Positions 48,073 through 63,069 of a stretch of DNA of 64,000 bases are shown piece by piece. Under the pieces are notes generated by a model. It did no database searches and was not told the DNA's origin. It worked only from the letters and a program-made list of their open reading frames with translations. Origin of the DNA: Microbacterium candidum (GTDB lineage: Bacteria; Actinomycetota; Actinomycetes; Actinomycetales; Microbacteriaceae); assembly GCF_030315975.1 (NCBI RefSeq), contig NZ_JASXSZ010000001.1, positions 124,001 to 188,000 on the forward strand, written 5' to 3'. Made by a program: the position numbers and the translations under genes. Numbering within the stretch: the stretch's first letter is position 1; every line of letters starts with the position of its first letter.

Positions 48073-48106
48073 CCGACTATCGCGACGCGAGCGCGCGAGC
48101 GTAACC
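48073..48106 (-). promoter_or_regulatory. Conserved flagellar promoter before flgN
   Basis: Minus strand GGTTAC-N14-GTCGCGATAGTCGG. It lies between csrA and flgN, directly after the csrA stop at 48108. The GCGATAG core resembles the -10 (GCCGATAA) of FliA/WhiG promoters. One of four copies with the same spacing. Confidence 0.8.
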
Positions 48107-48107
48107 G

Positions 48108-48350
48108 TCAGGACGCGGTGCGGCCCAGGGCGCTCAGGAGCGCGGCCTCGGCGGAGTCGCTGGACGAGGCCTGTGCCGCCACCTGGTTCTCGTCGCCCAC
48201 CGCGACCACGATCTCGGTGCGGTTGATGCGCTTGTCACGCGGGGCGTCGATGCCCACGCGCACCCCTCCGGGCGTCACCCCGAGGATCGTGACGGTGATG
48301 TCGTCGCCGATCCGGATGCTCTCGTTCGGGCGCCGCGTCAATACCAGCAT
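48108..48350 (-). CDS. csrA: Carbon storage regulator CsrA
   Basis: 80 residues. The start MLVLTRRPNESIRIGDDITV and GVRVGIDAPRDKRINRTEI contain the CsrA RNA-binding strands (Leu4, Arg6, VGIDAP). It represses translation by covering ribosome-binding sites; here it is controlled by FliW encoded in the next unit. A Ser/Ala-rich 20-residue tail is longer than usual. It follows flhA by 60 nt. Confidence 0.96.
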   Translation of the reverse strand: MLVLTRRPNESIRIGDDITVTILGVTPGGVRVGIDAPRDKRINRTEIVVAVGDENQVAAQASSSDSAEAALLSALGRTAS

Positions 48351-48410
48351 GTGTGTTCGCCTTCCATGGCTGCGCGCTCGCGCGGGTCCTTCACCCTCAG
48401 CATACCGGCA

Positions 48411-50489
48411 TTAGCTTGGTATATGAGTGGATTCGACGGATGTGAGGGCGGTGGGACCCAGCCTGACGACGCCGACCACGTCGGTGGCGAAGCCGCCTGC
48501 GGCGGCCTCGTCGTACGAGAGAACGGGAAGGCCGACGACCTGGGCCGCGACGAGGTTCCGCACGGCCTGGCGCAGCGACGGCGCGCAGACCAGCACCGGC
48601 TCGGGACCGCTCCTGTCGAGCTCGTCGACGGTACGGCGCACCCCCTCCAGCACCTGCATCGTCGTCTGCGGGCTCAGCACGATCTGCGCCCCCCCGTCGG
48701 AGACCCGCATCCCCTCGAGCATCTGCTGTTCGAGCATCGGGTCGAACATCACGACCCGCAGGCGCCCGCCCCGGGCGAAGCGGGCGGCGATGGCCGGTCC
48801 GAGGGCACCGCGGGCGGCCTCGATGAGACCTGCCGTGTCGGTCGAGACCTTGGCGCGCAGCGCCAGCGCCTCGTAGATGCGCCCGAGGTCGTTGATCGGC
48901 ACGCGCTCGACGAGGAGGCCCGCGAGGACGCGCTGGATGCCGGCGAAGGACAGCACCGCAGGGGTGAGCTCCTCGACCGCGGCGGCGTTCGTCTGCTTGA
49001 GGTGCTCGGTGAGCAGGCGGACGTCCTCGAGCGAGAGGAGGCGGTACGCCTGGGCCTGCACGATGTCGGAGAGATGCGTGACGATGACGCTCGCGCGGTC
49101 GATGACGGTCGCACCCGCCATGTCCGCCGCGTGCGACATCTCGGTGGGCACCCACTTGCCTTCGAGGCCGAACACCGGGTCGGCGACGGCCGTCCCGGGC
49201 AGCTCCTCGAGCCCGGTGCCGATCGCGAGCACATGCCCGCGCGGGACGATGCCGCGGCCGGCCTCGACGCCCGCGATGAGGATCGCGTAGGTCTCCTTGG
49301 GGAGCTCGATGTTGTCGCGCGTGCGCACCGGCGGCATCATGATGCCGATCTCGAGGGCGATCTTGCGGCGGAGGGATTTCACGCGCGTGAGCAGGTCCCC
49401 CGATCCACCGGCGGCGAGATCGACGATGTCGGGTGAGAGCGAGATCTCCAGCGCGTGGACCCGCATCCGGTCCATGAGGTCGTCCGGACCGTCGGCGGCC
49501 GCTTCGGCCGCTTCGAGCTCCTGGGCGTGGGCGTCCGCGGCGGCGAGGCGCGCCTGGTGGGCCTTGACGCGGGATGCGGCGAACAGCAGCACCGCGCCGA
49601 TCGCGAAGAACGCGAGGATCGGCATCCCGGGAATGAGGCCCATCGCGATCGCGGCGACCCCGGTGATGAGCAGGGCGTTGCGGGACTGCATCAGCTGGCG
49701 GCCGGCGGCGTGGCCCAACTCCGCCTCGGCATTCTCGCGGGTGACGATGATGCCGGTCGAGACCGCCATCAGGAGTGCGGGGATCTGCGTGACGAGGCCG
49801 TCGCCGATCGTCAGCAGGCTGTACGTCTTCAGGGCCTCGTTCATGTCCATGCCGTGCGTGGACATGCCGATGACGATCCCGCCGAAGAAGTTGATGACGA
49901 CGATCACGATGCCGGCGATCGCATCCCCCTTGACGAACTTCGACGCGCCGTCCATCGCGCCGTAGAAGTCGGCCTCGGCCGCGACCTCCGCACGACGCGC
50001 CCGCGCCTCCGCATCCGTGATGAGTCCCGCGTTGAGATCCGCGTCGATCGCCATCTGCTTGCCCGGCATGGCATCGAGGGTGAAGCGTGCGCCGACTTCC
50101 GCGACGCGCTCCGCGCCCTTCGTGACGACGACGAACTGGATGACGGTGAGGATGAGGAAGATCACCGCGCCGATGACGAGCGATCCGCTCACCGTGATCT
50201 GCCCGAACGCCTGGATCACCTGGCCGGCGTGCGCCTGGCTGAGGATCAGCCGGGTGGACGCGACGTTCAGCCCCAGCCGGAAGAGCGTCGCGACGAGCAG
50301 GATGCTCGGGAACACCGAGAAGTCGAGGGGCTTCTTGACGAACATCGCCGTCAGCAGGATGAGCAGGGAGATGCAGATGTTCAGGACGATGAGCACGTCC
50401 AGAAGGCCGGTGGGGATGGGGACGATGAGGAGCAGGATGATCCCGACCACGCCGACCGGCACGACTCCCTTGGACAGCAGCTGACCCAT
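48411..50489 (-). CDS. flhA: Flagellar export gate protein FlhA
   Basis: 692 residues. Eight N-terminal transmembrane helices, the FHIPEP-region equivalent (DAMPGKQMAIDADLNAGLITDAEARARR), then a large cytosolic domain (PVRTRDNIELPKETYAILIAGVEAGRG). FlhA forms the nonameric ring that passes substrates through the export gate. ATG 50489; flhB ends 40 nt upstream. Confidence 0.96.
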   Translation of the reverse strand: MGQLLSKGVVPVGVVGIILLLIVPIPTGLLDVLIVLNICISLLILLTAMFVKKPLDFSVFPSILLVATLFRLGLNVASTRLILSQAHAGQVIQAFGQITVSGSLVIGAVIFLILTVIQFVVVTKGAERVAEVGARFTLDAMPGKQMAIDADLNAGLITDAEARARRAEVAAEADFYGAMDGASKFVKGDAIAGIVIVVINFFGGIVIGMSTHGMDMNEALKTYSLLTIGDGLVTQIPALLMAVSTGIIVTRENAEAELGHAAGRQLMQSRNALLITGVAAIAMGLIPGMPILAFFAIGAVLLFAASRVKAHQARLAAADAHAQELEAAEAAADGPDDLMDRMRVHALEISLSPDIVDLAAGGSGDLLTRVKSLRRKIALEIGIMMPPVRTRDNIELPKETYAILIAGVEAGRGIVPRGHVLAIGTGLEELPGTAVADPVFGLEGKWVPTEMSHAADMAGATVIDRASVIVTHLSDIVQAQAYRLLSLEDVRLLTEHLKQTNAAAVEELTPAVLSFAGIQRVLAGLLVERVPINDLGRIYEALALRAKVSTDTAGLIEAARGALGPAIAARFARGGRLRVVMFDPMLEQQMLEGMRVSDGGAQIVLSPQTTMQVLEGVRRTVDELDRSGPEPVLVCAPSLRQAVRNLVAAQVVGLPVLSYDEAAAGGFATDVVGVVRLGPTALTSVESTHIPS

Positions 50490-50529
50490 CAGGCGCCTCT
50501 TTCCTGTTCGTGTTCGTGCAGCCCGGGCA

Positions 50530-62352: not shown

Positions 62353-62975
62353 GCCGTGTCCCCGTCGTCGCCGCGCAGCGCCCCGGCCGCGCGGTCGAGG
62401 GCCGCGGCGATCCGCGCATCCACTGCGCCGTCTTCGATCTCGACGATCGCGCCGCCGGGATCGACGTCGGCGGACGAGCTCACCTCGACGCGCGGCAGCA
62501 TGCCGTTCGCCCGCAGCGTCTCCACGTCGCGCTCGTTGAAGGAGACGCGCCGCCACGCGGCGACCGGTGTCTGGGCGAGCGCGCGACGCAGCGCATGGGC
62601 CGCGGAGCGCGCGGCATCCGACAGCTCCGCATCCAGGATCGTGGTCGAAAGCTCCACGGCCAGCTCTTCGATCCGAGCGGCCGCGACGCCGGACAGCCGG
62701 TCGGCGCGCGCGTCGAACTCCGTCCGGGCGCCGTGCAGCGCGACGAGGGCGGAGGAGAGCGCGCGGCGGGCCTCGGCATCCCTGATCCGCTCCCGCTCGC
62801 GTTCCACCGCCAGCTCGCGCTGGGCCTCTTCGAGCGCCGCCCTGCGGCCCTCGGCGAACCCGTCCGCGTAGCCGCGCGCACGGGCCCGCGCGGTCTCGTC
62901 GCGGATGTCGACGGGCGCGTCGCCGATACGCGGCGCCACGAGCGGCGTGAAGGCGGAGTCGAACACGGCGGTCAT
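62349..62975 (-). CDS. fliH: Flagellar assembly protein FliH
   Basis: 208 residues. A charged coiled-coil N-terminal half (RARGYADGFAEGRRAALEEAQRELAVERERERI) and a V/A-type ATPase subunit E-like C-terminus (DPGGAIVEIEDGAVDARIAAALDRAAGAL) mark FliH, which regulates FliI. It starts behind the fourth conserved flagellar promoter; fliH-fliI-fliJ-fliK-flgD-flgE would be its unit. Confidence 0.88.
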   Translation of the reverse strand: MTAVFDSAFTPLVAPRIGDAPVDIRDETARARARGYADGFAEGRRAALEEAQRELAVERERERIRDAEARRALSSALVALHGARTEFDARADRLSGVAAARIEELAVELSTTILDAELSDAARSAAHALRRALAQTPVAAWRRVSFNERDVETLRANGMLPRVEVSSSADVDPGGAIVEIEDGAVDARIAAALDRAAGALRGDDGDTA

Positions 62976-63016
62976 CCCGGAGGTAGATCTCGGTGCCGGT
63001 CCCTGGCCAGGTCGAA

Positions 63017-63031
63017 GAGCGATCCGTGCTC
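63017..63031 (-). promoter_or_regulatory. GGA-loop hairpin in the fliH leader (possible CsrA site)
   Basis: Minus strand GAGC-ACGGATC-GCTC, identical to the fliP-leader hairpin, 42 nt before the fliH start. Confidence 0.55.
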
Positions 63032-63035
63032 GGTG

Positions 63036-63069
63036 CCGACTATCGCGACACGCGCGGGCGGCGGTAACC
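63036..63069 (-). promoter_or_regulatory. Conserved flagellar promoter before fliH
   Basis: Minus strand GGTTAC-N14-GTCGCGATAGTCGG between fliG and fliH; the fourth copy. The sequence downstream is also shared with the fliP copy. Confidence 0.8.

Follow-up and report, generated by a model that had tools for sequence, protein, structure and literature searches.

The stretch of DNA considered here is a 64,000-nucleotide (nt) window of Microbacterium candidum (assembly GCF_030315975.1, contig NZ_JASXSZ010000001.1, positions 124,001-188,000; genome G000 in our sample). It holds most of a flagellar gene cluster in which a promoter-like motif, GGTTAC-N14-GTCGCGATAGT, recurs ahead of successive gene sets. 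Read in the direction of transcription, the gene order of the cluster is sigma2; site 6 with fliC, fliD and fliS; site 5 with flgB, flgC, fliF and fliG; site 4 (63036) with fliH through flgD and flgE; site 3 (57563) with flbD and motA through fliN and fliO; site 2 (53561) with fliP through flhB, flhA and csrA; and site 1 (48073) with flgN, flgK, flgL and fliW. At the cluster tail, fliW is followed by an HU-like gene and sigma1. Sigma1 is a FliA/WhiG-type sigma factor and sigma2 a divergent FliA-like one. Genes were named by Pfam, except that flgD and flgE were named from sequence and position, and flgB, flgC and flgL from general rod or flagellin models together with position.

An earlier note on this DNA had reported four minus-strand copies of the motif, each in a gap ahead of a flagellar gene set. 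All four are exact and lie where it placed them (Table 1), while dinucleotide shuffles (n = 100) lead one to expect none, and no further copy occurs in the window with up to three mismatches allowed. Each copy starts 1-28 nt past the stop codon of the preceding gene, and the Pfam assignments confirm flgN, fliP, flbD followed by motA, and fliH as the genes downstream. The 20 specified bases were matched five times in the whole genome at up to three mismatches, every time exactly and within the flagellar cluster; a reversed control pattern was matched once. The fifth exact copy precedes flgB just beyond the window (G000:C1:190965-190998). A sixth copy, before fliC in the same cluster, is a two-mismatch variant with a changed -10 element, GTCGCGAATG. 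A shorter pattern gave 29 matches in this genome at up to three mismatches, against 20 for its reversed control, and at two mismatches it matched 95 of 149 genomes of the genus. Many of these lack flhA and have reversed-control matches of their own, and loose matches were therefore given no weight. At 57577-57608, after flgE, a perfect inverted repeat (GCGGCCCGCCCCGG-TTAC-CCGGGGCGGGCCGC) holds the -35 core of the flbD site in its loop, such that a terminator-like stem overlaps the next promoter; the spacer letters are the same in G088, G115 and G116.

The genus sample comprised 149 genomes, of which 38 have flhA (PF00771) and form the flagellated set. Flagellar clusters of 35.5-40 kb were compared from 31 of these, namely all but G016, G023, G078, G091, G108, G122 and G143. 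Clusters with the GGTTAC-type motif were designated class A (n = 16) and those with a CTAACG-N15-CCGATAG motif class B (n = 15). Site tables were restricted to the plus strand, leaving uncounted the near-class-B sites, at one mismatch, of several class B clusters that have flgN on the opposite strand. Excluded from the class A counts were three-mismatch sites labelled flhA (two), fliH but inside coding sequence (one, in G032) and sigma2 (one); excluded from the class B counts were sites labelled fliF (one), flhA (one) and sigma1 (five).

Over the 16 class A clusters the motif reads (G/A)GTTAC-N13/14-GTCGCGATAGT, with (G/A)GTTAC in 90 of 90 sites. The spacing of exactly 14 nt given in the earlier note holds for the four window copies but is relaxed across the genus, where 69 sites have 14 nt and 21 have 13. 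A trailing CGG was tried as part of the motif and rejected, conservation stopping at GATAGT in the 90 sites. Every cluster has a site before fliC, flgB, flbD and flgN (16/16 each), 15/16 have one before fliP and 11/16 before fliH; one of the 16 flgN sites is at three mismatches, and the -10 of the fliC site is usually GTCGCGAATG. Sigma-28 (FliA/WhiG) promoters have TAAA at -35 and GCCGATAA at -10, according to the accessible part of PMC8325347. The likeness to them claimed for the -10 half extends to the shared CGATA core but not to the remainder (GTCGCGATAGT versus GCCGATAA), and the -35 half is indeed unlike TAAA, being GTTAC at all 90 class A sites.

Whole-genome searches (N14, at most one mismatch) returned 77 matches in 20/20 flagellated class A candidates, M. 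candidum included. Seventy-five of the 77 fall within the flagellar cluster or on a contig bearing parts of it, one is on an unplaced contig (G108) and one precedes an M23 peptidase gene (G011). The same search of 19 other genomes gave a single one-mismatch match (G040), and the reversed control none in all 39. These counts support the motif as a flagellar-type promoter; the expectation that it would mark motility genes only was borne out insofar as no non-motility gene class recurs, but not entirely, as the G011 site is placed outside the clusters. That site (L129, G011:C1:847232-847261) is an exact class A site, and the peptidase looks secreted and could be a wall hydrolase for passage of the flagellum. 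Of 299 family genomes, G000 and G043 alone, each a member of this genus, reach two matches or more when one mismatch is allowed; a further nine have one match each, with one mismatch, and the reversed control matches 13 genomes. Judged by its sequence distribution, the class A motif belongs to one clade of the genus and is not the actinobacterial promoter class that the note had envisaged.

The 15 other flagellated clusters have no class A sites save two stray matches at two to three mismatches. In an unbiased count of repeated dyads in these clusters, CTAACG-N15/16-(C)CGATAG was, by judgement, the sole promoter-like dyad among those ranked at the top, the rest resembling coding repeats. Its 62 sites lie before flgB and between motA and fliN in 15/15 clusters each, before fliC and flbD in 14/15 each (the flbD rows number 15, two being from G008) and before fliD in 3/15. 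In the class B clusters of G002, G029, G040 and G077, CTAACGTTACTATGTGGA occurs upstream of sigma1 and, reversed, at the near-class-B sites by flgN, as a common control site might.

The two cluster classes differ in their sigma factors. Sigma2 heads 16/16 class A clusters and 0/15 class B clusters; a sigma1-type gene is found at the tail of 11/16 class A clusters (on the other strand in G043) and is missing from 5/16, while 15/15 class B clusters have the sigma1 type only, at the head. Matches of the sigma2 kind in a whole-genome search of the genus came from 19 genomes, all flagellated, and the named relatives in a search reaching close relatives only were from Microbacterium (10) and a "Microbacteriaceae bacterium" (1). 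In the sigma tree, sigma2 forms one clade with 100/100 support, opposite all sigma1 types, and its closest solved chain is E. coli FliA (6pmi, E-value 2.6e-17). Sigma factors contact DNA through regions 2.4 and 4.2, and the segments that differ between sigma groups are the likely DNA-contacting ones. The recognition helix is SH(A/P)Y(V/I)SK(L/M)R in 15/16 sigma2 proteins and HSAVSQQR in 15/15 class B head sigmas, and region 2.4/3.0 is DPAG(E/V)(R/Y) in 16/16 of the former and DWA(S/T)RG in 15/15 of the latter. We infer from these sequences that the motif is likely read by sigma2.

The earlier note had instead assigned the motif to sigma1, the FliA/WhiG-type sigma encoded in the same cluster. 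That type is absent from 5/16 motif clusters and present without the motif in all 15 clusters that it heads, where CTAACG-N15-CCGATAG stands in its place. The M. candidum genome has no CTAACG-N15-CCGATAG site at up to one mismatch, though sigma1 is present, and at two mismatches this pattern gave 29 matches versus 56 for the control. In G114, G032 and G043 the tail copy sits on a long branch, and 9/11 tail copies keep the B-type helix, AVSQ(Q/H)R or AVTQQR. Loss of sigma1 is scattered on the FlhA tree (three changes, at least two of them forced), with the motif retained; this repeated loss from the tail while the motif stays is an independent argument against sigma1, and only this adds independent weight. 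By comparison of these sequences the assignment to sigma1 is probably wrong, and we hold it to be very improbable. The motif could also be the binding site of an activator acting with the housekeeping sigma, sigma2 being unrelated to it. In favor of an activator, some copies read GGTTACC, a short palindrome, and the usual elements of promoters of the FliA type are TAAA and GCCGATAA (PMC8325347, accessible text). However, the two halves are placed as -35 and -10 elements would be, with a spacer that varies by a single base (13 or 14). GTTAC...CGATAG also nearly lines up with the CTTAC/CTAAC...CGATAG promoters found in relatives, and GGTTAC is not followed by a constant base. We consider an activator site unlikely.

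Downstream of the promoters lies another conserved element, one that the earlier note does not mention: the flgB leaders of both classes and the fliH and fliP leaders of class A have two hairpins with GGA in the loop in 57/57 cases. Hairpin 1 is GAGC-ANGGAYN-GCTC, its GGA lying 14 nt after GATAG in 54 leaders, 13 in one and 15 in two; hairpin 2 is GGCY-ANGGAYN-GGCY, with GGA at offset 35-38, that is, 21-24 nt from the first. All four pairs of hairpin 1 are standard in 41/41 distinct rows; in hairpin 2 three pairs form in 39/39 rows and the fourth in 37/39. The loop is A-N-GGA in every distinct row except hairpin 1 of G022. The fliC leaders have a single longer hairpin with GGA at offset 17 or 18 in 30/30 and pass the stem test in 29/30 (not G022). 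Its arms vary by species yet pair, with covariation at pairs 3, 5 and 7 around an invariant ACGGA, and the first four pairs are formed in 97.7% of cases compared with 86.3% (maximum 93.2%) when arms are shuffled. For counts per gene set, sites at two or more mismatches were removed except for fliC and class B flbD, hence totals of 15/16 for flgN and 14/15 for the motA-fliN site. On this basis GGA hairpins occur in all of the 11-16 leaders of the fliC, flgB, fliH and fliP sets, save class B fliC (13/14), and in 9-26% of shuffled leaders. Some 8 nt separate GATAG from the start of the first stem; with ordinary promoter geometry that stem would come at about position +3 of the RNA. In most class A flgN leaders a stem also folds close to this 5' position, but its loop contains no GGA (window 48047-48067, for example). 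In class A leaders, CGGAU of hairpin 2 can pair with (A/G)UCCG at the Shine-Dalgarno sequence (with GUCCG in flgB and fliP leaders such as window 53501-53533), and CsrA might switch the leader between this possible second fold and the hairpins. Rfam gave no match at gathering score in the window or in L027:6500-10300, a segment that holds the flgB and fliC leaders.

A classic CsrA target has GGA in a hairpin loop (PMC7652899, accessible text), and both loop positions of the 57 leaders are of this form. csrA (PF02599) was found in exactly the 38/149 genus genomes with FlhA and in 0/111 others, and thus looks dedicated to flagella in the genus. The window CsrA is at or above the curated cut-offs of TIGR00202 (71.3 versus 70.1) and NF002469 (73 versus 73). 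Most likely, going by loop sequence and gene distribution, the hairpins are CsrA sites at the 5' ends of messenger RNAs (mRNAs).

The leader extends beyond the genus. CGATAG-N8-GAGCACGGATCGCTC, at up to two mismatches, was found in 61/299 family genomes representing 21/85 genera (reversed control, two genomes) and in 24/297 order genomes; a few CGATAG-N8 matches (G066, G377, G443) are likely due to chance. We examined 40 loci outside the genus: 20 from the pattern searches (three family genera, three order families) and 20 picked one per further genus, the second set bringing coverage to 20/21 matching family genera and two more families. The next gene is flgB in 37/40 loci, a context seen in the family itself and in three others (f6, f9, f14); the three loci without flgB are L121 (a chance match), L165 and L170 (f10; both hairpins, no labelled neighbor). 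L165 (G217) and L170 (G603) have the full two-hairpin leader behind a CGATAG or CGATGG -10, and with no labelled flagellar gene downstream they perhaps serve another target operon. In the 20 further loci the second GGA is at the same place in 20/20. When 50 flgB leaders were aligned, both hairpins were present in 50/50 rows, with 100% of pairs formed and two double changes (1/500 shuffles as high). A covariance model (R1) was built from these 50 rows only, with the fliP and fliH leaders unused in its building; at E ≤ 0.01 it recovered the flgB, fliP and fliH leaders from the whole M. candidum genome and nothing else. Beyond the order, no convincing match to the hairpin model was seen among 396 phylum genomes searched with stricter filters: besides G000 and G043, the latter with one extra weak match, 28 genomes gave matches at E-values of 1.6e-4 to 1e-2, one of them in the family (G289), and these were treated as mostly chance. 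The -35 element outside the genus is CT(A/T)AC in 37/39 leader loci (12/12, 6/7 and 19/20 in the three sets), and because of this the class B CTAACG promoter is likely the ancestral form and class A derived from it, as far as such sequence comparisons indicate.

Taken together, the comparisons make it probable in our view that a genus-restricted promoter of the sigma-28 type, read by sigma2, precedes six flagellar gene sets, and that the fliC, flgB, fliH and fliP transcripts start with predicted CsrA hairpins. Sigma2 would recognize the motif via its altered regions 2.4/3.0 and 4.2, and transcripts would start about 7 nt after GATAG, so that the mRNA would enter its first hairpin at about position +3. 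The two GGA sites, 21-24 nt from each other, could then be bridged by a CsrA dimer; in fliC the dimer would link the hairpin to the GGA of the Shine-Dalgarno sequence. Binding may lower translation as at B. subtilis hag, and FliW may relieve the effect once flagellin leaves the cell. Historically, one clade of the genus would have exchanged an ancestral sigma1/CTAACG system for sigma2/GGTTAC, with sigma1 pushed to the cluster tail, where it is now being lost, and the leader hairpins kept.

Several observations weigh against parts of this reading. The split between classes A and B is one branch on the FlhA tree, and the 16-versus-15 pairing of motif with sigma2 therefore amounts to one evolutionary event. 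The sigma2 of G043 departs from the others in its recognition helix, SRPRVNKVR, although GGTTAC is retained at the G043 sites; in G108, a genome that is 79% complete, there is a single motif copy and no sigma2 match; and weaker FliA-like matches occur in four genomes without flhA (G007, G038, G076, G094). The best family match of sigma2, TIGR02479 (FliA_WhiG), scores 107 bits, under the curated 189.6, and the window sigma1, at 141.2, is also below that cut-off. The promoter sets overlap only partly, class A also serving fliH, fliP and flgN and class B the motA-fliN site; ahead of fliH and fliP, the 15 class B clusters yielded no site of their own class. GGA hairpins are rare or absent behind some promoters (flgN class A 2/15, flbD class A 0/16, motA-fliN class B 0/14, fliD class B 0/3), while flbD in class B has them in 11/15 leaders. 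Within the genus, arm pairing of hairpins 1 and 2 is in no excess over arm shuffles, and in the flgB alignment the number of pair types is unremarkable (107/500 shuffles as high) and a control slid by +3 gave 0.058 against 0.057; as the sequences stand, the covariation support comes from fliC. The energies of folding do not reach significance (z -1.2 to +1.3), and of five leaders folded, two formed both hairpins, two the first only and the flgB leader of M. candidum neither.

Two other accounts of the leaders have to be set against CsrA binding. If GAGC-ACGGATC-GCTC were a DNA operator at the start site rather than an RNA hairpin, the near invariance of the hairpin 1 arms would be explained, as three of the pairs never vary and the fourth does so in 1/49 distinct rows. 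However, the ACGGA loop is kept elsewhere with other paired arms (GGCC/GGCC, GGTCC/GGACC, GAGACC/GGTCTC, GCCC/GGGC), the loop being the constant part, as for CsrA, and CsrA occurs exactly where FlhA does in the genus sample; an operator thus seems to us distinctly improbable. The 5'-terminal hairpins might alternatively guard the mRNA from 5'-end-dependent decay, with CsrA, if bound at all, stabilizing it as at E. coli flhDC, where it protects the transcript near its 5' end (PMC7652899, accessible text). Such a role would fit a first stem that starts some 8 nt past the -10 in the flgB, fliH, fliP and fliC sets, the flgN stems without a GGA loop, and hairpins that end upstream of the Shine-Dalgarno sequence in the window fliP leader. 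An invariant GGA loop is needless for protection alone, though, and fliC has a second GGA at its Shine-Dalgarno sequence, as in hag, so that we rate protection as possible but doubtful. Precedents for CsrA exist both ways, repression at B. subtilis hag and stabilization at E. coli flhDC (PMC7652899, accessible text); we take repression with FliW relief to be the likelier mode here and stabilization its main rival.

The system resembles several known ones. It shares with sigma-28 promoters the CGATA core, a similar spacing and FliA-like sigma genes in the flagellar cluster, but differs in (G/A)GTTAC at -35, GTCGCGATAGT at -10 and its restriction to one clade of a genus. The class B CTAACG promoters of other Microbacterium and of relatives in the order likewise stand before fliC, flgB and flbD, are followed by the same leader hairpins at fliC and flgB, and have a -10 related to that of class A; they differ in the -35, the -10 flank, the sigma1-type head sigma and a partly different operon set. 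As in the CsrA-FliW-flagellin switch of B. subtilis hag, outlined in the accessible text of PMC7652899, csrA and fliW are present and fliC has a GGA hairpin together with a Shine-Dalgarno GGA; here, however, tandem hairpins at a fixed distance from the promoter are also found on the flgB, fliH and fliP sets. E. coli flhDC, as described in the same text, has two stabilizing CsrA-type sites near its 5' end, comparable to those near the inferred 5' ends here, whereas here several structural operons have predicted sites. CsrA control of flagellin mRNA via a hag-like site has already been proposed for Kineococcus radiotolerans (PMC2587704); in its accessible text the proposal covers flagellin only and mentions no flgB, fliH or fliP hairpins. 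A literature search, mainly of titles and abstracts with subscription papers outside its scope, gave no description of tandem leaders or promoter replacement beyond that flagellin proposal.

It seems to us an evenly balanced proposition that, across an actinobacterial order, flagellar operons start with a fixed unit of promoter and CsrA hairpins, CsrA being a dedicated checkpoint of the flagellar program beyond flagellin, and that one Microbacterium clade had its promoters rewritten for a new sigma with the RNA checkpoint kept. The proposed replacement of a sigma factor and its promoter set inside one genus provides a natural before-and-after pair, both sigma types being still present in 11/16 clusters. 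The RNA leader element, for which Rfam has no family, leads to the prediction that CsrA controls early flagellar operons throughout a Gram-positive order.

Table 1. Flagellar genes, promoter-like motifs and predicted leader hairpins (window positions, except sigma2)
Feature	Position	Strand	Remarks
flgN	47543..48070	-	PF05130; start possibly nearer 48031
fliP	52657..53493	-	PF00813
flbD	57313..57525	-	PF06289
fliH	62349..62975	-	PF02108
csrA, between flhA and the flgN promoter	48108..48350	-	PF02599, 8e-21
fliW, predicted CsrA antagonist	44823..45227	-	PF02623, 4.3e-17
sigma1, FliA/WhiG-type sigma, cluster tail; not likely the reader	43055..43852	-	
sigma2, likely reader, outside the window	about G000:C1:194191-195027	-	
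Class A promoter-like motif before flgN	48073..48106	-	-35 GGTTAC 48101-48106; -10 GTCGCGATAGT 48076-48086
Class A promoter-like motif before fliP	53561..53594	-	-35 53589-53594; -10 53564-53574
Class A promoter-like motif before flbD-motA	57563..57596	-	-35 57591-57596; -10 57566-57576; leader without GGA hairpin
Class A promoter-like motif before fliH	63036..63069	-	-35 63064-63069; -10 63039-63049
fliP leader hairpin 1, GAGC-ACGGATC-GCTC, GGA offset 14; predicted CsrA site	53542..53556	-	46.6 bits, E 2.2e-10 (model R1)
fliP leader hairpin 2, GGCT-ACGGATC-GGCC; predicted CsrA site	53519..53533	-	
fliH leader hairpin 1, GAGC-ACGGATC-GCTC; predicted CsrA site	63017..63031	-	35.1 bits, E 1.7e-7 (model R1)
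fliH leader hairpin 2, GGCC-AGGGACC-GGC; predicted CsrA site	62995..63008	-	three pairs, fourth broken

Two further features lie near the cluster tail. The gap between fliW and the HU-like gene (44600-44830) ends in a strong terminator-like stem with a T run (44634-44674), and Rfam gave sub-threshold matches only in this gap, none at gathering score. Upstream of sigma1, positions 43925-43940 form a perfect 16-base palindrome, ATGAGAATATTCTCAT, that is operator-like.

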